Shown here one piece after another: positions 1-38,932 of a DNA stretch of 64,000 nucleotides. The DNA is taken from positions 1 to 64,000 of IMG/VR virus record IMGVR_UViG_3300008114_000046; one strand, given 5' to 3'. How positions within the stretch are numbered: the first letter of the stretch is position 1; the number at the start of each line of letters is the position of its first letter. Origin of the DNA: a virus. The position numbers were made by a program, and so were the translations under genes. The notes beneath the pieces were generated by a model. The model ran no database searches. It saw nothing but the letters and a program-made list of their open reading frames with translations, and had not been told where the DNA came from.

Positions 1-1145
1 TGTGGACCAGTAGGTCCTTGAACTGTAGCACCAGCAGGTCCTTGTGGGCCTGTTGGACCTTGTACAGTTGCTCCAGCTGGACCTTGCGGACCAACTGGTC
101 CTTGTACAGTTGCTCCAGCTGGACCTTGCGGACCAACTGGTCCTTGTACAGTTGCTCCAGCTGGACCTTGCGGACCAACTGGTCCTTGAACCGTAGCACC
201 AGGAGGACCTTGAACTGTAGCACCTGCTGGACCTTGCGGACCTGTTGGACCCATAGGACCTATTGCACCTTGAGGACCTGTTGGTCCCATTGGTCCGATT
301 GGACCCATTGGTCCTGTAGAGCCTTGAGGACCTGTTGGTCCCATTGGACCCATTGGTCCGGTAGATCCGACAAATCCTACTGGACCCTGAACAGTAACAC
401 CGGGAGGACCTTGTACAGTAGCCCCAGAAGGTCCTTGTGCTCCAGTGATACCTTGTGATCCTGTAAATCCTACTGGACCCTGAACAGTAGCGCCAGCCGG
501 ACCTTGAACTGTAGCGCCAGATGGTCCCTGAGCTCCTTGAGCTCCAGTAGCACCTTGTGATCCTGTAAAGCCAATTGGTCCCTGTGCGCCAACCGGTCCT
601 TGGGCGCCAGTCGGACCTTGAGCCCCAGTAGCACCCTGTGGTCCAATACCACTTATCCATGATACGTTGGTACCATCTGTTCTTAGGAAGAACCCGGTTG
701 CACTGCCTTGAGCTGGAAGAAGATTGTTTATAGCAGCGGCACGTGTTGATGCATTTGTGCCACCTTGACCAATGTTTAGAATGCCATTGGAGATAGAAGA
801 AGCGTTTACAATCAAGCCTGTTGCGTTTGCAATAATACCATCGCCGGCACGAATATTAATTGTTGTTCCGTTGGCATTAATAATAGAGTTTGAAAGACTT
901 AGATTGTCGGCAGATACCGTGAATGTTCTCGTTGTATTACCAAGTAGGACACCATTTGCATTCGGGATCAACTCACCGCTGATCTCCGTATTACTAAATG
1001 TAAGGTTTCCTACAACCTCTAGCGAACCGTTGACTGCGAGAGTCTGACGAATTCTCATGTGTTGTGTAATTTCTACATTTGAAGTAAATGTAGAATCACC
1101 GTTTACTAATAATCCATTATCTACTTTAAAATTAGTGTTTGCCAT
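1..1145 (-). CDS. Collagen-like tail fibre protein (C-terminus cut by window edge)
   Basis: The minus-strand reading frame opens with ATG at 1145 and stays open to the left edge, so the C-terminus is missing (about 381 codons visible). Residues 1 to about 160 are Asn/Thr/Ser-rich beta-type sequence like the neighbouring fibre protein. From about residue 165 it becomes a Gly-X-Y collagen-like region ([17 protein letters not shown] and similar). The triplet phase is broken repeatedly by a GATVQ insert, giving [12 protein letters not shown] units. Collagen-like triplets in phage proteins form trimeric rods in tail fibres, so I infer a trimeric fibre or fibre shaft. It is the last visible gene of the minus-strand virion block and starts 7 bp after the preceding gene stops. 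Receptor specificity would lie in the missing part. Confidence 0.8.
63..188 (-). repeat. Three tandem 42-bp repeats inside the collagen-like gene
   Basis: Three consecutive, essentially identical 42-bp units start at 63, 105 and 147. Each encodes 14 residues ([14 protein letters not shown] in register). The unit is a multiple of 3, so copy-number change by slippage or recombination would lengthen or shorten the fibre without breaking the frame. Related but more diverged units extend on to about 640. Confidence 0.85.
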
Positions 1146-1152
1146 GTCAACC

Positions 1153-3468
1153 TTACTTAATTAGATGAGCTATAACTTTAACCGCGGAATTTGCAACGGT
1201 TTGTTGAAGATATAAATTCACATTGTTATCTAAAGTACCAGTATTTGCTGTAAACGTTCCAAGAGGAGATGCAGCGCCATTTGAAGCAACTGTACCATAA
1301 ACTGTTACAAACGCATCGGTTGTACCATTGTGAGCAAGTACAAGTTCAGAAAGCTGTGTGTTACTACCTTTCTTTACTTGAACTTCAAACTTGGCCGATG
1401 AATATGTTGCTTTAGGGAATGTGTAGATTAGCACAGGTCCAATTACGTTTCCAATATCACCATTTGCAGATACATCAACTACATAATCTGTTTTGAATGT
1501 AGTAGTTCCACCAATTGTAACAGTGTTTGATAGTGTTGTCGCGCCAAGAACACCAAGGGTTCCATCAGTTTCAATTGCAGTGGATGTAATGAATGTATTA
1601 ACACTGCCGGTACCTACTGTAATTCTTGTTAATGTAAGATTAACATTGGCACCAACATTCATTGCAACTGATGCATTTGCTGTCGTAGTATTCATGCCAC
1701 CAGAAAGAGTACTTAATCCAGCTACACCCAGTGTATTTGATAGTGTAGCAGAATTAGTTACAGCAATTGTGTTTCCAAAGCTGGCTGCGCCGGTAACCGT
1801 AATCGTATTTGAGAACGTAGCGGTATTTGTTACACCAATAGTGTTTGAGAATGTAGCTGCACCAGTTACACTCAACGTATTTGATAGTGTTGTAGTATTA
1901 GCAACCGATAGAGTACCATCAGTTTCAATACCAGTAGCTGTAATGAACGTATTCTCAGAACTAGTACCAACTGTAATTCTTGTATTTGAAAGATTTACGT
2001 TAGCACCAACATTGATTCCAACCGAAGCATTTGCTGTTGTAGTGTTTAGGTTACCAGAAAGAGTGGTTAGACCGGTTACACCAAGCGTGTTAGATAATGC
2101 AGTAGCACCAAAGACGGTAAGTGTGCCGTCTGTCTCGATCGCAGTGGCTGTAATGAATGTATTAACACTATTATTGCCAACATTAAATCTATCTAATGTA
2201 AGATTGACATTGGCGCCAACATTTACAGCGACAGAAGCATTTGCAGTTGTGGTATTCAGTGCAGCATTTAGTGATGCAAGACCGGCAACAGTTAGTGTAT
2301 TTGATAGTGTTGTAGTATTAGTAACCGCCAATGTATTAGATAATGTAGCAGCATCAGCAACTGTTAATGTACCATCGGTTTCGATTGCAGTGGCTGTAAT
2401 GAATGTATTAACACTACCAGTACCTACCGTAATTCTTGTATTTGAAAGATTTACGTTAGCGCCGACATTCATCGAAACGTTTGCATTCACTGTTGTTGTA
2501 TTTACATTGCCAGAAGCATTTGCTAGACCAACTACTGTTAGTGTGTTGGATAATGTGGCATTGCCAGTAACAGCAATTGTGTTTGAGAATGTAGCATTAC
2601 CTGTGATAGCAACGGCATTTGAGAATGTAGCATTACCTGTCACAGCAATAGTGTTTGACAAAGTAGCATTGCCAGTTATGGCTAGAGTGTTCGATAATGT
2701 AACGTTGCCTGTTACAGCTAGTGTATTGGATAATGTAGCATTACCAGTTACAACAATCGTATTTGCAAAGTTAGCATTTGATGTTACATTAGCAGCACCA
2801 GAAATTGTCAGGTAGTTGGTTGGTGTAATTACTAGATTAGCAATACCAGACCAAGAACCGTTACCAAACTTACTGTCGAATGAACTGTTGGCAACAACTA
2901 TCGTTGTAGCATTTGCAAAGACATTTGCACCAATGGCTACCATAGTAGTATTGGCAACAAACAGACCAGTACTAAAAGCGTTCGCAGTCATGTTTGCTGT
3001 GGTTGTAGCATCTGCAACTTGAATGCGTGTTGGTGTAATATTCGTGTTGACAGTACTGCTAGATTGTGTTATAATCAGACTACTGTTTACAAAGGAATTA
3101 GCAGATCCTAAGCCAAGGTAAACACCAACTGGATTCAGGTAGCTGTTCGAGGTGCTGTTTCCGGCAAGAACACGAATACCAGCGTCTGCTGCAACATAAG
3201 CTGTAGCATTTGATGTAATGACTAGATTTGCAGAGTTGCCAGTTTGAACGTTACCACCACGAAGAGCAGTTCCAACTGCAATAGTGTTTGCACCAAACGT
3301 ACCCCAAAGCTGAGCGGTACGAGCAATAGTATTATTGCCGGTGTTAGCAACAGTAGTATTTGCAGTAATAATTTCAGTCGAAAAAGCGTTCAGCAGCTCG
3401 TTAGTCTGGAGCAACCAAACTTCAAAGCTATCAGTAATGATATCAACGTTAGCTACTTGTCTTGACAT
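1153..3468 (-). CDS. Repeat-rich tail fibre / virion protein, 771 aa
   Basis: The N-terminus ([20 protein letters not shown]) resembles the start of structural proteins of T4-like cyanophages, where it probably docks to the virion. The middle is almost entirely repeats of two kinds. One is a run of about 12-residue units of the type [12 protein letters not shown]. The other is four copies of a 48-residue module (NTTTANAS...NVGANVNL...[23 protein letters not shown]). This is typical of beta-solenoid or triple-beta fibre shafts. The last 110 or so residues are non-repetitive and look like a compact C-terminal domain. It lies between the collagen-like fibre and a small protein that overlaps its start by 1 bp. 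The exact fibre role (shaft, whisker or adhesin) cannot be told from sequence alone. Confidence 0.7.
1545..2770 (-). repeat. Nested in-frame repeats in the 771-aa fibre gene
   Basis: This stretch encodes four 48-residue modules containing NVGANVNL and a [14 protein letters not shown] tail, separated by variable numbers of 10-12-residue TLSNTLxVTG units. Both repeat classes keep the frame. The DNA copies are diverged at third positions, so they are old relative to the 42-bp repeats at 63-188. Confidence 0.8.
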
Positions 3469-32863: not shown

Positions 32864-33769
32864 TCAATCTTCGTCAGCAAGTCGCTTGAAGAAAGCCAGA
32901 TCCTCGTCGTCATCATCGACGCCTGCCGAAGCAACGGGAGCGGCTGGAGCAGCAGCTGCCTGGAAGACTGGGGCCGGAGCCTTGTACTCTTCCTCGTCAA
33001 GTTCAACACCACGAATCTTTGCCGGAGCGGCATTGAGACCCAGAACATTGTTGAGACGAGTCTTTAGCTCATCATAAGACTTAAAGTGCTTTGGATCTAC
33101 AAGGTCCTGGAGCGAATGCTCCTGCTTGTATACCGCTTCAAGTTCAGCGTCATCATCGAGCAGTGGTGCGGGAGAGTCGAATTCAGACTTATCGTAGTTG
33201 CGGTAACCCTCAACCTTACGAATCTTGAGCTTGAAGTTAGCACCCGTCCAAAGATCGAACGGATTTACTGGTTGTTCGTCCTGAAATTGAGGGTTCATCA
33301 GGTCGTTCAACTTGTCAAAGATCTTCTTGCCATACTTGTACAGGAAGACCTTACCTTCGTTGTCACGATTACCAGGATCGCTAACAACGTAGATGTTTGA
33401 GATGTAAGACAGGCGACGCTTCTGGTCACGTGCCTTTTCCTTGTCCGATTCCAGACCAGTATTCCAGAGAACAGAGTTGTGCTCAGAAACAGGATCTGGC
33501 TTACCAAGAGTCGTCAGCGACTTCTCGATATACCAAAGACCGGTTGGCCCTTTAAAGCCATGGTCCCAGATGCGAACAAAAGGAAGATCTTCACCGCCCG
33601 GTGCAGGAAGGAAACGAATGACAGCGTAGCCATTTTCAGCCTTGTCCAATGTAGGCTTCCAATACTTGTCATCGTCGGAACGGTCGAAGGTAGTGGTCTG
33701 CTTCTGAAGCTCCTTGGTGAGCTTTTCAAATGAGGTAGCAGACGAGCGCTTGAGATCAGCGAAAGACAT
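32864..33769 (-). CDS. 32: Single-stranded DNA binding protein gp32
   Basis: A 301-residue protein. The N-terminal basic LAST-like region (MSFADLKRSS; FEKLTKELQK) is for cooperativity. The core includes KYWKPTLDKAENGYAVIRFL, FVRIWDHGFKGPTGLWYIEK, then RLSYISNIYVV and VFLYKYGKKIFDKL. The tail is acidic (DDDDEDLAFFKRLADED) for protein partners. It has no cysteine at all, so the zinc ribbon of T4 gp32 is absent, as in cyanophage homologues. It is followed by a strong terminator. Start 33769 has AAGGAG upstream. It coats ssDNA in replication and recombination and binds gp59. Confidence 0.92.
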   Translation of the reverse strand: MSFADLKRSSATSFEKLTKELQKQTTTFDRSDDDKYWKPTLDKAENGYAVIRFLPAPGGEDLPFVRIWDHGFKGPTGLWYIEKSLTTLGKPDPVSEHNSVLWNTGLESDKEKARDQKRRLSYISNIYVVSDPGNRDNEGKVFLYKYGKKIFDKLNDLMNPQFQDEQPVNPFDLWTGANFKLKIRKVEGYRNYDKSEFDSPAPLLDDDAELEAVYKQEHSLQDLVDPKHFKSYDELKTRLNNVLGLNAAPAKIRGVELDEEEYKAPAPVFQAAAAPAAPVASAGVDDDDEDLAFFKRLADED

Positions 33770-33804: not shown

Positions 33805-34689
33805 TTAGTCGTTATATTTAATTGAGAGATATTTAGCCCCGCCATCCCAAGGCATGAATGGAATATCAGAATATTCGATATCATGGTTGGTAAAACGTGG
33901 GACAAATTCCTCTCGTATGTATTTATCATTATCGATACCAAAGATCTCATTAGAATATGCAATTAGCCAATTTTTTGTTTGGCCGATCTTTGACATGATA
34001 TCATTACGAAGGTCGACTGGCATCTCGGTGAATGACCAAGTACCAATCATTAGATCTGCATCAAACAGATCATTCACATCAGAAGTATGTACGATGTTGG
34101 TATGTCCCAACTGATCGTGATACCACTTCTGAACTGCACCGACTTCAGCAAAATCGTAAATTACGTACTTGCCTTTGAAGCCGAGCTTGTAGACGATATC
34201 AGCCATGTCGCCAATGCCGCCGCCAAGTTCTACAATCGTATCCAGCTTTGCTAGATCTTCTGGAGTCCACTTGTTCAAAACAAGGTGAGCCATATGTTGG
34301 ATACGATTCATTGAGGTTGTAAAGTCTTCGAACAGATTGTAGATACCACGATCTTGTTCGGTAATCCCTACATCGGGATCTTCGAGTGCGTAACGAATTC
34401 GACGATCTTCTTTTGCAGCTGGAAGAACTGCAGCAAAGTAATCGAAGAATCGAGCTCGAGTCATAAAAGGAACTGACATCACAGATGCCCAGACCTTAAA
34501 GCGTTCTTTAGGAAGATTCTCAAAATCCTCAGCAAACACTTCACACATCACACTCCAATAGTTGCCATCATTTACTTGCTTGGCAGCCATCATCTTTTCA
34601 AATGTTTCTTTGGAAGAAGCTAGAGGAGCTTGAGCAGTCATTGCCGGATTAGCCGGCTCAGTAGAGTAACGAAAATATTCAGACATCAA
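33805..34689 (-). CDS. SAM-dependent methyltransferase, sugar O-methyltransferase type
   Basis: A 294-residue protein. The N-terminal half is helical (FRYSTEPANPAMTAQAP). A class I methyltransferase domain begins with the SAM motif IVELGGGIGDMADIVYKLG at about residues 152-170, then YVIYDFAEV (acidic end of beta2). This layout resembles the putative sugar O-methyltransferases next to LPS or capsule genes. It lies between gene 32 and gene 59, an uncommon insertion in a trio that is usually compact. The substrate is unknown; phage or host surface sugar is the likeliest. It overlaps gp59 by 4 bp. Confidence 0.65.
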   Translation of the reverse strand: MMSEYFRYSTEPANPAMTAQAPLASSKETFEKMMAAKQVNDGNYWSVMCEVFAEDFENLPKERFKVWASVMSVPFMTRARFFDYFAAVLPAAKEDRRIRYALEDPDVGITEQDRGIYNLFEDFTTSMNRIQHMAHLVLNKWTPEDLAKLDTIVELGGGIGDMADIVYKLGFKGKYVIYDFAEVGAVQKWYHDQLGHTNIVHTSDVNDLFDADLMIGTWSFTEMPVDLRNDIMSKIGQTKNWLIAYSNEIFGIDNDKYIREEFVPRFTNHDIEYSDIPFMPWDGGAKYLSIKYND

Positions 34690-35264
34690 TCACCTGCAAA
34701 TTTGTCTTTCAGTATTTTACGACACTTGAACATGTCATAATGAAAGAATGGTTTATACTTACTTAGCTTTTTATATATGCTCGGCCAAAGAACACCATCT
34801 TCAATCTTCTTATTCCAGTGGCCAAAGAAACCAAGAATATCATTTAGAATAATAATAGTCTCAATCGAGATTTCTCTACGTAAGTATTGTTTAAGTAAAT
34901 ATGGGTGTTGCCCATTCTTTACAATAACATTATCGTCAAAATCTGTCAACAGTTTATTTAGGTCTTGCTCAAAAATATACGAAAGAGATTGCTGTCGCTT
35001 GAGCCAGTCAGCATAGAGCTTTTCAGACTTATCATCAAACAAATCGCCAATCCATTTCAAGTCACCATCAACAAAGTTGGCAACTAGATATTGGAGTGGG
35101 TTCTTATGTTTGGAGAGTTTGTAAAATTGGTACTTGTCTTTACGAGTCTCGAAGCTCGTAGAACTTGCATTCACTTTACCATTGTACTTAATGTAATCAT
35201 AACTATCACTGGTAAAGTGGCTTTTGACCGCAAGGAAAGTCTTATAAGACTCGAACGGCGTCAT
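34686..35264 (-). CDS. 59: Helicase loader gp59
   Basis: A 192-residue basic, mostly helical protein with T4 gp59 features: DYIKYNGKVNAS, RKDKYQFYKLSKHKNPLQYL, VANFVDGDLKWIGDLFDDKS, and a C-terminal helical half (YLLKQYLRREISIETIIILN; then WPSIYKKLSKYKPFFHY). gp59 binds gp32-coated forks and loads the gp41 helicase. The position between gp32 and gp33 agrees with T4 order. It overlaps gp33 by 4 bp. Confidence 0.88.
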   Translation of the reverse strand: MTPFESYKTFLAVKSHFTSDSYDYIKYNGKVNASSTSFETRKDKYQFYKLSKHKNPLQYLVANFVDGDLKWIGDLFDDKSEKLYADWLKRQQSLSYIFEQDLNKLLTDFDDNVIVKNGQHPYLLKQYLRREISIETIIILNDILGFFGHWNKKIEDGVLWPSIYKKLSKYKPFFHYDMFKCRKILKDKFAGD

Positions 35265-35506
35265 ACTGGCAGTCGGGCTGTCTTAGGAAGATAGTTAAGA
35301 TCTTCAGCGGCCGACTGAAGTTTTGATTTGATTTTAATATTGTTCTTGATAATTGAAGCAGCAGCCTCAATTTCAATATTATTCTTTTCACAAAGGTGGA
35401 CGACGGCATCCATGTAATCTAAATTATACGTCTTCACAAGATTTTCGATCTCTTTAATAAACTTTTCATTAGACATAGTCTTTTGAAAGATAACGTCGTC
35501 CACCAT
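35261..35506 (-). CDS. 33: Late transcription co-activator gp33
   Basis: An 81-residue protein. The helical core (IENLVKTYNLDYMDAVVHLC and NNIEIEAAASIIKNNIK) matches T4 gp33, which binds the RNA polymerase beta flap and connects it to the sliding clamp at late promoters. Start 35506 has AGAGGA 8 nt upstream. Its presence supports the reading of TATAAATA elements in this genome as late promoters. It is shorter than T4 gp33 (112 aa), mainly at the N-terminus. Confidence 0.8.
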   Translation of the reverse strand: MVDDVIFQKTMSNEKFIKEIENLVKTYNLDYMDAVVHLCEKNNIEIEAAASIIKNNIKIKSKLQSAAEDLNYLPKTARLPV

Positions 35507-35512
35507 AATAAA

Positions 35513-36091
35513 TCATCCTCTATAAAAAATATGTGCACCAATCTTAGTTGTACGATCAAAGACTCTACCCCAACGAGGACTTACGTAGTCGGCGTGGTAG
35601 AACTTTGCACCTTTAGTTACGTCACCGTAATTTCCTAGGTACACGTGTTCGGCGATTTCTTTTGCTTTTGCGAAAGCTACACCGTCACGAATTCGCTTTC
35701 CTCCCTCACACTTCCATGAAAATTGGCATACGCCTCGAGCTTTTTGGTTAATTACTCCGCATGGTGTTTTTGGGAATCTATCATCTTTGACGCGGTTTAA
35801 CACGACATTGTTAACCGCAATCCTACCTTTGTAGGGTTCATGGCCAGCTTCGAAGTAGGTATTCTCGGCCATGCATTGGATTTGTTTTTTATCGTTTGCG
35901 CTCAGATAAACTGGCTTTTTTACGATAACTTCTTTTTCGATTACCTTGACTTCAGGTACCTTAACAATCTTGACTTCTGGTTCCTTAGTTGGCATTGCAA
36001 CAGCTGCACCTGCAGCAAGAGCAAGACCAAGGCAGAATCCTTCAGCCCAGCGTAGGTACGGGAAATCTTTTCTATTTTCGAAAAGTTTCAT
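35513..36091 (-). CDS. Membrane-anchored cell wall hydrolase (SleB/CwlJ type), probable endolysin
   Basis: A 192-residue protein. A single Gly/Ala-rich hydrophobic segment spans residues about 17-33 (FCLGLALAAGAAVAM), followed by a Lys/Val/Glu-rich stalk (VKIVKVPEVKVIEKEVIVKK). Residues about 75-190 are a Hydrolase_2 domain (ENTYFEAGHEPYKGRIAVNN with the catalytic Glu; VCQFSWKCEGG; GAKFYHADYVSPRW). The weakly hydrophobic anchor resembles signal-arrest-release endolysins. It has AGAGGA before the ATG and a 267-nt structured leader with its own promoter upstream, so expression may be controlled at the RNA level. Confidence 0.75.
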   Translation of the reverse strand: MKLFENRKDFPYLRWAEGFCLGLALAAGAAVAMPTKEPEVKIVKVPEVKVIEKEVIVKKPVYLSANDKKQIQCMAENTYFEAGHEPYKGRIAVNNVVLNRVKDDRFPKTPCGVINQKARGVCQFSWKCEGGKRIRDGVAFAKAKEIAEHVYLGNYGDVTKGAKFYHADYVSPRWGRVFDRTTKIGAHIFYRG

Positions 36092-36104
36092 TTGTATCCT
36101 CTAA

Positions 36105-36358
36105 TCTTAAATGACTTTGGCAAACAGAGACTACTGTGCAGGCATCTCAGCCTATAGTTTTTCTGTCGCTATGAGAAGATACAAAAAGAAATAACGAAGG
36201 TATCTTCCATCCATTTCCCTCTTACTGGAAATGCAAAATCATTATGGTTTCGTCGGTGGAATTATTGTGCATCTGAGATGTTAGATAATTCCGCTTTCTA
36301 TAGCCCTAAGACTTGAAGCTTTGTAAGAGTCAATGGAGGTTCCAACCTCCGTTGCGAT
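36105..36358 (-). ncRNA. Structured RNA or long leader upstream of the hydrolase gene
   Basis: There is no protein gene here. Read on the minus strand from the promoter at 36365-36393, the RNA contains GGAGG-TTGGAA-CCTCC, then a CTATAG...CTATAG closing pair. This encloses three strong hairpins: GGAATTAT/ATAATTCC (with an inner CATCT/AGATG), CATTTCC/GGAAATG, and GAAGATAC/GTATCTTC. An AGGC/GCCT hairpin follows before the hydrolase start at 36091. No tRNA cloverleaf and no tmRNA signature fits. It is either an independent small RNA or a regulatory leader of the hydrolase. I know no family that matches. Confidence 0.6.
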
Positions 36359-36364
36359 ATTTTA

Positions 36365-36393
36365 TTTATACACCATAGATCTATAAATGTCAA
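36365..36393 (-). promoter_or_regulatory. Promoter TTGACA-17-TATAAA for the structured RNA / hydrolase
   Basis: The minus strand has TTGACA at 36393-36388, a 17-nt spacer, and TATAAA at 36370-36365. The -10 region reads TATAAATAA, which is also a T4 late promoter. Predicted start of RNA is near 36358. Confidence 0.75.
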
Positions 36394-36419
36394 CCACTCG
36401 TGGTGTTTCTAGAACAACT

Positions 36420-36745
36420 CGTGGTATGTGTGGGCCCGTTCTGTTGCTAGGTGGAACCCATCCCCCGAAAAATCATGCAGCTAGTGCAAGACCTTCATAT
36501 GCAGTGTTATCGTTTGCATTTACGTTTAGTGGCACTTTGCCAGTCAATCAGTCTCGAACCTTCCTATTACACGAAAATCGAATTCCAAGGTCACCCCCAT
36601 CAAAGACACACTGCCGGCCGCAAAAGGCGATCTCGTTGGCTAAGCCCAGAACTTTCGTCCCTGTCTAAACAATGTGTCTATGGTGGAGGTGCGGGGAGTC
36701 GAACCCCGGTCTTTCCGCCTTTACTGTTGATTGTCATCAACTGAT
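36420..36745 (-). ncRNA. ssrA: Circularly permuted two-piece tmRNA (ssrA)
   Basis: Read on the minus strand, the acceptor piece comes first. It has a T-arm CGGGG-TTCGACT-CCCCG (about 36708-36692) and the 3' end CACCTCC-A-CCA finishing at 36681. An 82-nt spacer follows (36680-36599), bounded by GACACA/TGTGTC complementarity. The coding piece then begins GGGGGTG at 36598, which pairs over 7 bp with CACCTCC to close the tRNA-like acceptor stem. A tRNA-like D-region (GACCTTGGAATTCGA) and a tag ORF follow. The 3' part has AGCAACAGAACGGGCCC. Permutation with this tag style is known from alphaproteobacteria. The exact 5' end of the acceptor piece and 3' end of the coding piece are uncertain. Confidence 0.93.
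36473..36517 (-). other. tmRNA tag ORF: ANDNTAYEGLALAA-stop
   Basis: Within the coding piece, after TAAACGTAAAT, the resume codon GCA (36517-36515) starts a 14-codon frame ending TGA (36475-36473). The peptide is ANDNTAYEGLALAA. The AND start and the hydrophobic ALAA end are normal for tmRNA degradation tags recognised by ClpXP-type proteases. Cellular alphaproteobacterial tags commonly begin (A)ANDN. Confidence 0.92.
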
Positions 36746-36751
36746 ATTCTA

Positions 36752-36780
36752 TTTATATACTAGATTGATTTAAATGTCAA
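36752..36780 (-). promoter_or_regulatory. Promoter TTGACA-17-TATAAA for tmRNA
   Basis: The minus strand has TTGACA at 36780-36775, a 17-nt spacer, and TATAAA at 36757-36752, continuing as TATAAATAG. It combines a consensus -35 with a T4-type late element, so it could be used both early and late. Predicted RNA start is near 36745, about 37 nt before the T-arm. Confidence 0.8.
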
Positions 36781-36783
36781 CCA

Positions 36784-37221
36784 TTAATTGCACCAAGATT
36801 GCTTTGCGTCGCCATAATATTCACGAGCAAAACCATTCTTGATAAGCAGATCACGAAGGCTCATACCATCAAGCAAGATATCGCCAAGAATACGGCCACC
36901 AAACTTGTCCCAATCGTATAGAACAACCTGGTGCTTCTTTGTCGCAGCAATTACGTCCTTTGTAAAGACAGAAGCCTGCTCACCGCGCTTCTTTTCGCTT
37001 TCACATTTAGCACGGAAGCTTTTCTCTGGAGTGTCGACACCAAAGATACGAACACCGAGCTCAGGCTTGAGTGGTGCTGGAAGATATGGCGCAATAACAA
37101 CAACTGTATCACCATCGACTGCGCGAACAATGGTAGTATCATAGGTAACACCAACTGGTGTCTTCTGAGCAATAGCTGGAGTGGCTAGCATTACAAGTGC
37201 TAGTGCAATAAACTTCTTCAT
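36784..37221 (-). CDS. Exported thermonuclease-family (SNase) nuclease
   Basis: A 145-residue protein. The signal peptide at residues 1-18 (MKKFIALALVMLATPAIAQ) has an AIA-type cleavage site. The SNase core follows: IVRAVDGDTVVVIAPYLP, then VRIFGVDTPEKSF (active-site Arg, Asp, Thr and Glu), and DKFGGRILGDILLDG (second active-site Arg). It is predicted to act in the periplasm or outside the cell, on DNA or RNA. Length fits a single-domain SNase. The two cysteines outside the signal peptide (CES...SWC) could form a disulfide. It is encoded just upstream of the tmRNA. Roles could be destroying incoming competitor DNA or salvaging nucleotides; both are inference. Confidence 0.85.
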   Translation of the reverse strand: MKKFIALALVMLATPAIAQKTPVGVTYDTTIVRAVDGDTVVVIAPYLPAPLKPELGVRIFGVDTPEKSFRAKCESEKKRGEQASVFTKDVIAATKKHQVVLYDWDKFGGRILGDILLDGMSLRDLLIKNGFAREYYGDAKQSWCN

Positions 37222-37231
37222 ATATTATTCC

Positions 37232-37552
37232 TTAATTACAGGTAGTTTGCCAGTAGATGTATCGTTCACCACGATGCCATTCTACAATTTGTTCGCGAAC
37301 GCAATAACGTCTATCATAACGATAATCTGGTGGGTAGTAACGGTTATCGTATTCTTGTTCTCTGCGTTCTCTACGATCAGAGGAAAGAGCACCTACAACA
37401 ACACCGCCAATGATTGCTCCACAAAGCCAGCCACAACCACCTTTACGGCGTTCATGTTGGCTATAGTCTCTGTCTCGTTTGCGGTGTTCGGCAAAAGCCG
37501 GAGTGGTAATTAACATGCTAGCAGCAAGAACAGATGCAATAAGCTTTTTCAT
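37232..37552 (-). CDS. Small secreted protein with glycine-zipper segment, 106 aa
   Basis: I start it at ATG 37552, which has GAGGAAT 4-5 nt upstream and opens a clear signal peptide (MKKLIASVLAASMLITTPAF, cleavage after AFA). The mature part is very basic (HRKRDRDYSQHERRKG). It then has a glycine-zipper-like hydrophobic segment (CGWLCGAIIGGVVVGAL) with G-x3-G spacing, and ends with a Tyr/Arg-rich region (RYYPPDYRYDRRY) with two more cysteines. Such proteins are common in alphaproteobacterial envelopes. It forms a run of exported proteins with the nuclease. Function is unknown; envelope insertion or superinfection exclusion is possible. Confidence 0.65.
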   Translation of the reverse strand: MKKLIASVLAASMLITTPAFAEHRKRDRDYSQHERRKGGCGWLCGAIIGGVVVGALSSDRRERREQEYDNRYYPPDYRYDRRYCVREQIVEWHRGERYIYWQTTCN

Positions 37553-37553
37553 A

Positions 37554-37736
37554 TTAGAATTCCTCATCAATATCAGCAAACATAACTCGCTTACGAGGGT
37601 CACCTGATGTGATACAGCGAGTAAGTATGAGAGCTTCTTTGTAATTCTTTGTATGAAATCTTACCGGAAAGATGATTTCATCATCCTCGGTTTCTAAAGA
37701 CATTCCTACAAAGTAAGTACCGTTTTCTTCTGTCAT
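37554..37736 (-). CDS. Hypothetical protein, 60 aa
   Basis: A small acidic protein (MTEENGTYFVGMSLETEDDE) with alternating beta strands (FPVRFHTKNYKEALILTRCI) and an acidic C-terminus (FADIDEEF). It starts 3 bp after the stop of the upstream membrane protein and its stop is 1 bp before the next start, so it is part of the operon. I do not recognise the family. Confidence 0.55.
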   Translation of the reverse strand: MTEENGTYFVGMSLETEDDEIIFPVRFHTKNYKEALILTRCITSGDPRKRVMFADIDEEF

Positions 37737-37739
37737 GCA

Positions 37740-37988
37740 TTATTTATTATCGACAGATTCTTTCTTTTCCTCCACAGTATTCCATTTGAAGTGATTGCGG
37801 GCATAAACGATTCCAAGCGCAATGCTCATCGGAATCAATCCCCACGTTTGGCTGGCAATAATCCATGTAATCCAAAGGACTTGATTGCCGAGTCCAACTG
37901 CCCATGCACGTGGGTGATTGTTACCTGCCAGCAACGTCATCCAAATGGTAAGGCATGACATTAGCCATGGCAGGTAAGTTACAATCAT
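37740..37988 (-). CDS. Small membrane protein, 82 aa, Trp-rich
   Basis: Three hydrophobic segments are visible: residues 1-21 (MIVTYLPWLMSCLTIWMTLL), 29-46 (VGLGNQVLWITWIIAS) and 47-63 (WGLIPMSIALGIVYA). A hydrophilic tail follows (VEEKKESVDNK). Six Trp residues cluster at the membrane boundaries. Trp-rich small membrane proteins of this pattern occur in T4-like phages without known function. It overlaps the DUF932 gene by 4 bp. Confidence 0.6.
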   Translation of the reverse strand: MIVTYLPWLMSCLTIWMTLLAGNNHPRAWAVGLGNQVLWITWIIASQTWGLIPMSIALGIVYARNHFKWNTVEEKKESVDNK

Positions 37989-38932
37989 GCTGCGTCTGCA
38001 AATTCAACAGCGGTTTCCAAGGCCTTGGTCTTAAGGTTCTTATTAGCACCATACCAAGCCGAAGTCAGACGATTGTCAGAATTACGACCAATCATGTGAT
38101 CGGTCATGAAAGTGACAGCGTTGAATGCCTGCCACCAGCTACCTTCAGCAAATTCTGCACCAGGTTGCTGGTCCATGATTTCCAGAGCGATACCAGCATT
38201 CTTGCTGATTTCCTTCTTAGAACCAGATACTGGGAAGACACGAGTGAAGTAATCTACAATCGACTCGTCTGTGAAACGCTTCGAACCGAGATAAGCAGCC
38301 ATTTCTTTGTACTTGGCAAGCTTTTCCTTGGCAACACCAAGAGTTTCCTTGACCAGATCACCATCGAATTCACGACGGTGGCTTACCTTTACAATCTTGC
38401 TCGACTGAGTATTGAGCGAGAGAGTCAGAGTGTTGTTGCAAACAACGCGAATTGGAGTGAACCGGACATCGATTGACCAGCCATATTTGTGAGGATTGGT
38501 GAAGAGGAGGTAGGACTCTACTGTATCACCCTTGAAAAGCTCGAAGCTTTCCTTGACCTTGGCAAGAGCCCAGACCAGCTGGCCATCACGAAGCGAACCA
38601 GCAGTATGCATTTCCATTTCACCGGCTGCAACGAAATCATTGAAGAATTCGAAAGCAGATTCGTTCTGATTCGGAATCCAGTCGTCAGTGATAACGTCCA
38701 AGATCTTATTGTCAACATCACGAACCAGAGCAGAGTGGCCGACTGAAACCTGCTTACCAGCAATTTCAGCAAAGGCAGGAACCGGAGTCACTCGCCAATC
38801 AAGACCGGCAGCCTTGAGCATATCAACAGGAGTAATATCGGCAGGAACTTCAGTACCAAGACCGTGCCACGGAGTTTCACCAGCATAAGCCATCGAAGCC
38901 TTGCCATCCATAAATTCAATCATATGTGCCAT
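37985..38932 (-). CDS. DUF932 phage/plasmid-like protein, 315 aa
   Basis: Full-length member of the DUF932 (TIGR03299 phage/plasmid-like) family. It has an N-terminal ETPWHGLGTEV motif, LVWALAKVKESFELFKGD, and the conserved VRFTPIRVVCNNTLTLSL block, and it ends in a region of about 80 residues rich in helices. The family is common on plasmids and phages; the biochemical role is unknown. It is the first gene behind a strong early promoter at 38960-38988 and so is probably made early. Confidence 0.8.
   Translation of the reverse strand: MAHMIEFMDGKASMAYAGETPWHGLGTEVPADITPVDMLKAAGLDWRVTPVPAFAEIAGKQVSVGHSALVRDVDNKILDVITDDWIPNQNESAFEFFNDFVAAGEMEMHTAGSLRDGQLVWALAKVKESFELFKGDTVESYLLFTNPHKYGWSIDVRFTPIRVVCNNTLTLSLNTQSSKIVKVSHRREFDGDLVKETLGVAKEKLAKYKEMAAYLGSKRFTDESIVDYFTRVFPVSGSKKEISKNAGIALEIMDQQPGAEFAEGSWWQAFNAVTFMTDHMIGRNSDNRLTSAWYGANKNLKTKALETAVEFADAA

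Follow-up and report, generated by a model that had tools for sequence, protein, structure and literature searches.

The evidence supports a phage-encoded, circularly permuted tmRNA gene of the two-piece type and of the alphaproteobacterial form on the contig of a T4-like virus. The gene was studied in a window of 64,000 nucleotides, the whole stretch of DNA analyzed here, which corresponds to positions 1 to 64,000 of the IMG/VR virus record IMGVR_UViG_3300008114_000046 (70,868 bases). Our favored reading, to which we assign a probability of roughly 0.8, is that the gene gives rise to a working tmRNA that has long been resident in the phage lineage, and whose intervening segment (spacer) is an exchangeable cassette housing an HNH gene in several relatives. 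Comparison of sequences disclosed the anatomy of the gene, its conserved locus, a helix closing the spacer, the exchange of the cassette and the HNH genes within spacers. The RNA would probably be processed into two pieces and rescue ribosomes during infection.

A permuted tmRNA at positions 36420-36780 had been proposed by a first-pass annotation. ARAGORN, applied to the whole window, reported a single gene, a permuted tmRNA (tmRNA*) at 36382-36776 on the minus strand with the tag ANDNTAYEGLALAA. Two Rfam covariance models matched the same region of this strand, namely RF04321 (tmRNA_permuted) at 36742-36473 with 89.8 bits (cut-off 47, E 6e-16) and RF01849 (alpha_tmRNA) at 36784-36429 with 76.9 bits (cut-off 50, E 3.9e-19). 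A score below the threshold of the latter model had been named beforehand as the outcome that would speak against the gene; the match obtained lies above that threshold. According to ARAGORN and Rfam, the acceptor piece is transcribed ahead of the spacer and the coding piece, which is the permuted order. The acceptor stem GGGGGTG/CACCTCC is formed across both pieces with seven out of seven positions paired, including the wobble pair G3-U70. This pair is the alanine identity pair. The tag possesses a hydrophobic C-terminus of the ClpXP type. Acceptor stem, CCA end, T-arm, gene order, the spacer of 82 nt and the tag frame could all be verified on the sequence (Table 1).

Table 1. Positions of the tmRNA gene, its elements and its neighbors in the window
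Feature	Position	Strand	Basis
Permuted tmRNA gene, leader and 3′ flank included	36429..36784	minus	RF01849 match extent, RF04321, ARAGORN
Promoter-like element, TTGACA - 17 nt - TATAAATA	36750..36780	minus	TTGACA 36780-36775, TATAAATA 36757-36750
Acceptor piece (3′ half of tRNA-like domain)	36681..36742	minus	sequence and Rfam
T-arm CGGGG-TTCGACT-CCCCG	36708-36692	minus	sequence
Acceptor 3′ strand CACCTCC	36691-36685	minus	sequence
ACCA end, CCA encoded, last base 36681	36684-36681	minus	sequence
Spacer between the two pieces, 82 nt, without ORF	36599..36680	minus	sequence
Spacer-closing helix, 5′ strand, extends acceptor stem	36669..36680	minus	fold and covariation
Spacer-closing helix, 3′ strand	36603..36614	minus	fold and covariation
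Coding piece, G1 at 36598, 3′ end approximate	36429..36598	minus	sequence and Rfam
Acceptor 5′ strand GGGGGTG, followed by mRNA-like domain	36598-36592	minus	sequence
Tag frame ANDNTAYEGLALAA-stop, GCA resume codon to TGA	36473..36517	minus	ARAGORN and sequence
Replaced tract, about 159 nt, other allele in near-identical L160 and L167	36559..36717	minus	alignment
SNase-like nuclease, directly upstream of tmRNA	36784..37221	minus	PF00565 E 3.9e-10; phrog_452
Cell-wall hydrolase (endolysin), directly downstream of tmRNA	35513..36091	minus	PF07486 E 2.1e-24; phrog_938
gp33-type late-promoter transcriptional regulator	35261..35506	minus	phrog_254 E 1.1e-15
gp59-type helicase loader	34686..35264	minus	phrog_269 E 1.6e-56
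gp32-type single-strand DNA-binding protein	32864..33769	minus	phrog_224 E 1.4e-115

A near-consensus promoter ahead of the gene, claimed earlier without a strand, was found on the minus strand like the gene itself. Its -10 box TATAAATA also matches the T4 late-promoter consensus. Upstream of the acceptor piece, TATAWATA was present in 126 and a TTGAC-16..18-TA box in 106 out of 176 viral relatives. Throughout the window, TATAAATA was observed five times versus 3.45 times expected; because there is no clear enrichment, a role as late promoter is only suggested. Copies on the minus strand at 36370 and 36757 are situated ahead of the endolysin-gp33 genes and the tmRNA, respectively. The tmRNA lies upstream of the gp33 coactivator gene with one gene, the endolysin gene, in between. 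The SNase-like nuclease was also detected near the tmRNA in several divergent relatives (L038, L047, L053, L061, L062).

The scanned proteins of the contig are T4-like (gp6-type baseplate wedge, gp32, gp59, gp33, NrdA, NrdB, thymidylate synthase, exonuclease, PhoH), by which the contig is assigned to a T4-like virus. Its gp6-type protein is nearest (35-38% identity) to those of the Sinorhizobium phages phiM12 and phiN3, the Caulobacter phage Cr30 and a few others including Melnitz. A permuted tmRNA occurs in Melnitz; none was found in phiM12, phiN3 and Cr30, nor in RHph_TM30 and MW202675, two phages close by their SNase. Tblastn searches with the proteins of the window revealed that the tmRNA locus is common to many related IMG/VR contigs, with exonuclease/PhoH on one side and gp33-gp59-gp32 on the other. 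The block persists in relatives whose gp32 has no more than 50-60% identity, and Melnitz exhibits the same arrangement. RF04321 was present in 17 of 22 records checked, 15 of the 17 having been chosen because they bear the gene. The cultured Ruegeria phage RpAliso (L122, OR257569.1) harbors an unannotated permuted tmRNA at 2895-3116 (RF04321, 129.5 bits; tag ANENFAPVEMAVAA), which adjoins a tRNA cluster and not the gp33-gp59-gp32 block; this phage might serve as a laboratory model. The tag family ANDNxAYEG[LF]ALAA, whose members vary mainly at one or two positions, was encountered in 35 other viral contigs, while the pattern, which excludes TAG stops, gave no match in 84,980 bacterial and archaeal species genomes. 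A looser pattern yielded 28 matches in the species genomes, only two of which were called tmRNA by ARAGORN, both one-piece. Judged by locus and tag, the gene is a long-term resident of the phage lineage.

The GACACA/TGTGTC closure of the spacer noticed by the first-pass annotation is indeed present, but it makes up only a section of a longer helix. In the fold of 36590-36712 (-51.2 kcal/mol, z -3.4), this closing helix runs on from the acceptor stem without a break. We assembled 186 viral permuted tmRNA genes by means of acceptor pairing, G3-U70, T-arm, CCA and tag. Among them, 11 acceptor-stem variants were detected in which both strands were changed (e.g., GGGCCTG/CAGGTCC), though pairing had been selected for. 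The independent test is therefore the spacer-closing helix, which was not a selection criterion. Among 108 distinct spacer ends, 100 had at least 10 of the 12 positions paired, with the register almost always the same, whereas only 11% of mismatched ends taken from different genes paired likewise. All 12 closing pairs showed compensatory changes in 41 viral sequences picked for diversity, and the covariation score of this set, acceptor stem included, amounted to 0.715 as compared to 0.167 for shuffled and at most 0.17 for slid sequences. Inverted repeats at the spacer ends could also act at the DNA level, but the G-U pairs favor a role in the RNA. The pairing between the two halves lends weak support: duplex energies of cognate and non-cognate wider segments did not differ, and the better pairing of cognate halves in narrower segments (-6.5 versus -4.4 kcal/mol for non-cognate ones) was obtained with windows picked after this null result and with relatedness uncorrected.

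The spacer can differ between near-identical phages. Relative to L160 and L167, the window contains a replaced tract comprising part of the acceptor piece, the spacer and the 5′ half of the tRNA-like domain. Next to the gene, the flanks are 98-99% identical to those of both contigs (about 99% for L167, with 98% in the mRNA domain); the identity drops to 66% at the acceptor end and to 65-70% in the 5′ coding part (65% for L167), and the spacer is unrelated. We deduced exchange from pairwise identities among 145 distinct loci, a close pair being defined by at least 95% identity of the mRNA domain and the downstream flank; the relatives behind the swaps are metagenomic contigs. We counted 18 distinct close pairs. 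Their spacers were unrelated in 12 cases, and in five of these 12 both tRNA-like halves were essentially unchanged. The converse was met with in 25 pairs, whose spacers were 90-100% identical while their mRNA domains fell below 85%. Exchange was also seen between phages with unrelated flanks. One spacer of 122 nt was recovered from 11 contigs of 11 different metagenomes, always within tmRNA genes and always flanked by conserved acceptor sequence, together with five tags and several T-arm or tRNA-like types. No other copy of the 82-nt spacer of the window was found in IMG/VR. On the strength of these alignments, the spacer, at times along with flanking tRNA-like halves, is repeatedly swapped between phages as a cassette.

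Some spacers contain putative homing-endonuclease genes. The spacer of L157, a relative with the same tag as the window and mostly 70-93% identical neighboring proteins, measures 505 nt and harbors an HNH ORF (PF01844, 25.1 bits, cut-off 21.4; phrog_655, E 1.9e-13). L329, whose tmRNA gene has a different tag, carries an ORF 65% identical to it in its spacer. Searching IMG/VR with both ORFs yielded 277 relatives, 80 of which were kept. In 20 out of 22 full-length relatives, the ORF lies inside the spacer of a permuted tmRNA (19 detected by script, L393 by Rfam); of the remaining two, L398 is truncated by the contig end and followed by a coding piece, and L436 was negative. None of 29 partial relatives had the ORF within a spacer. 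As several of the 22 loci are near-identical, the number of independent cases is smaller (about ten). HNH-bearing loci recur in independent samples. RF04321 scored above the cut-off in nine HNH-bearing loci and in L179, with a match spanning the inserted gene in nearly all of them. ARAGORN reported none of the examined tmRNA genes with HNH in the spacer, and such genes may thus be under-counted. The spacer of the window itself contains neither an endonuclease nor any other gene. No member of the HNH family was found in 385 alphaproteobacterial genomes by a search run without a positive control. Cultured phages do have relatives of this family, the T4 Mob proteins among them; none was seen in a tmRNA, and the copy of Synechococcus phage S-SRM01 lies among structural genes.

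Other ORFs were observed in or near spacers. In L179 (2655-3006), the spacer of the tmRNA, whose tag is ANDNNAYEGLALAA, contains a second, unrelated HNH ORF (phrog_2255, E 2e-20), its end overlapping the coding piece; further loci are L466 and L467, the latter containing the one other relative of this family. In L399, a permuted tmRNA (1116-1464, minus; tag ANDAQFALAA) adjoins a divergently oriented relative of the HNH gene that lies outside the spacer. The spacers of about 134 nt in L014, L056 and L086 encode a small cysteine-rich peptide (MVICSCRDIRDSQY..CCGTC), and a similar ORF was located outside and upstream of the tmRNA in L109 and L171. Small ORFs also occur in the longer spacers of L075, L088, L108, L097, L119 and L045; Shine-Dalgarno-like leaders precede some of them, and some are membrane-like (MKNPLVKKISV..).

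Transcription from TTGACA/TATAAATA would lead to a single precursor, its spacer closed off by the acceptor stem together with the helix continuing it. Cleavage at G1 and trimming down to the encoded CCA, both by tRNA-processing enzymes of the host, would release the spacer and leave two base-paired RNAs. The product is expected to be charged with alanine via G3-U70 and to use the SmpB protein of the host. No smpB gene was found in the (partial) record of the window or in 22 other phage records, and the tmRNA must therefore rely on host SmpB. Stalled ribosomes could be rescued during infection in this manner, the added ANDNTAYEGLALAA marking the products for proteolysis as a ClpXP-type degron, probably to the benefit of the phage. 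Cutting, charging, rescue and tagging follow established tmRNA biology. The spacer would behave as an intron does, only without the need for splicing. Because it is lost in processing, inserts should cost little, which would explain the endonuclease genes and small ORFs found there.

We considered whether the RNA might mainly be a decoy or inhibitor titrating SmpB or the function of the host tmRNA, as has been proposed for the RNA of mycobacteriophage DS6A, an inhibitor consisting of the tRNA-like domain (TLD) only (PMC4131195, PMC11915505). Besides this precedent, the lack of a phage SmpB would suit a decoy; but the phage gene has kept its tag frame and mRNA-like domain, the tag changes little, and a decoy would have no use for the ALAA end of the tag, so that we deem this explanation improbable. 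Still less credit is given to a host ssrA recently picked up by transduction or imprecise prophage excision and without a role for the phage. Permuted form and RF01849 match do point to alphaproteobacterial ancestry, but the locus is conserved upstream of gp33-gp59-gp32 in divergent T4-like contigs and in Melnitz, and the tag pattern is absent from the 84,980 species genomes; for these two reasons a recent pick-up is not supported. Compensatory evolution among phages and the T4-like core genes speak against it too, as does the result that no integrase was among the genes covered by our non-exhaustive scan. It is equally hard to believe that the swaps are chimaeras of metagenome assembly. All relatives involved are metagenomic contigs, as chimaeras would demand, but the helix complementarity is preserved at the junctions in 100 of 108 cases, and HNH-bearing loci were assembled repeatedly from independent samples. 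The recurrence of the 122-nt spacer in 11 metagenomes with different tags and T-arm types likewise makes an assembly error unlikely.

A working, long-resident tmRNA with an exchangeable spacer leaves two candidate mechanisms of exchange. In the first, phages with a permuted tmRNA would offer mobile DNA a dedicated niche in its spacer. An HNH gene residing there would convert the different alleles it meets upon co-infection and thereby spread, and such homing would be the driving force by which aquatic T4-like phages swap spacers and tRNA-like halves; for this proposal we see even odds. The rival, which concerns the mechanism only, is ordinary homologous recombination using the tRNA-like halves as short homology arms, with the HNH genes as passengers. 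T4-like phages recombine readily, and the 122-nt spacer with its invariably conserved acceptor flanks fits such arms. Most exchanged spacers (50-155 nt) are devoid of an endonuclease; since these are exchanged too, recombination upon co-infection may suffice for most swaps. However, exchange between phages with unrelated flanks does not agree well with it, and the near-confinement of the HNH family to the spacer (20/22 full-length versus 0/29 partial relatives) suggests homing at least for that class. We consider ordinary recombination a serious contender at slightly below even odds.

So far, the circular permutation of tmRNA has passed for a structural oddity of the gene. If homing endonucleases land in the spacer and phages exchange DNA at this point, permutation would provide an intron-like refuge for selfish DNA that requires no ribozyme, and part of a ribosome-rescue RNA would be shuffled between viruses as a cassette. 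The phage-type tag could distinguish tagging by the phage RNA from tagging by the host RNA during infection. Our search of openly licensed papers did not turn up any description of a permuted tmRNA gene whose spacer encodes an endonuclease; HNH genes in tmRNA spacers and the swapping of spacers are the new part of this study, neither of which we found described before.

A phage two-piece tmRNA as such is already known, and the gene of the window joins that kind. According to the 2022 publication on Methylophilales phage Melnitz (PMC9004378), a tmRNA is present in 402 of 18,146 phage genomes, and of the 53 phage tmRNAs regarded as two-piece, 50 belong to marine or aquatic phages; a tmRNA database holds 79 unique phage sequences (PMC11915505). 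In our data, ARAGORN called a tmRNA, nearly always permuted, in about 85 of 120 viral contigs matching one short tag-region pattern. In view of that survey and these contigs, the rarity ascribed to phage tmRNAs by the first-pass annotation was overstated for this kind of virus. Melnitz and the pelagimyophages (PMC9004378) resemble the window in that a T4-like myophage carries a permuted tmRNA of the alphaproteobacterial type upstream of gp33-gp59. The tag of Melnitz is ANDNYVPVDYALAA, unlike ANDNTAYEGLALAA of the window, and the window has an endolysin gene between tmRNA and gp33. A glutamine riboswitch as in Melnitz gave no match at E up to 10 within 35000-38000 of the window; the same publication calls this element non-defining for the module and, as far as available, does not mention spacer exchange or spacer genes (PMC9004378).

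With alphaproteobacterial tmRNAs matching RF01849/RF04321, the gene shares the gene order, the acceptor stem with G3-U70, the CCA and a tag starting with ANDN. Spacers of the best-scoring bacterial permuted genes sampled are 5-47 nt long, whereas phage spacers mostly comprise 50-160 nt and carry a long covarying closing helix; the T-loop of the window is TTCGACT instead of the GCGGTAC type usual in that sample. The longest bacterial spacers retrieved in this sample (80-232 nt) contained repeats in some cases, and no HNH gene was seen in them. Rare spacers of 105-232 nt in alphaproteobacterial genomes (L468-L471) hold repeats or palindromes, not endonuclease genes. A tmRNA gene with a group I intron encoding a LAGLIDADG protein (PMC11915505) likewise bears a homing-endonuclease gene in a removed segment, but in the relatives of the window the gene lies in the permuted spacer and is of the HNH, not the LAGLIDADG type; in the tmRNA of the window, the T-loop TTCGACT is intact and no intron match was obtained. 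The free-standing HNH endonucleases of the T4 Mob type (PMC2988022) are similar by phrog_655, PF01844 and about 34% identity to T4-type Mob proteins. They differ in their location, as the putative HNH endonuclease of the relatives is encoded within the presumably processed spacer of a tmRNA gene.
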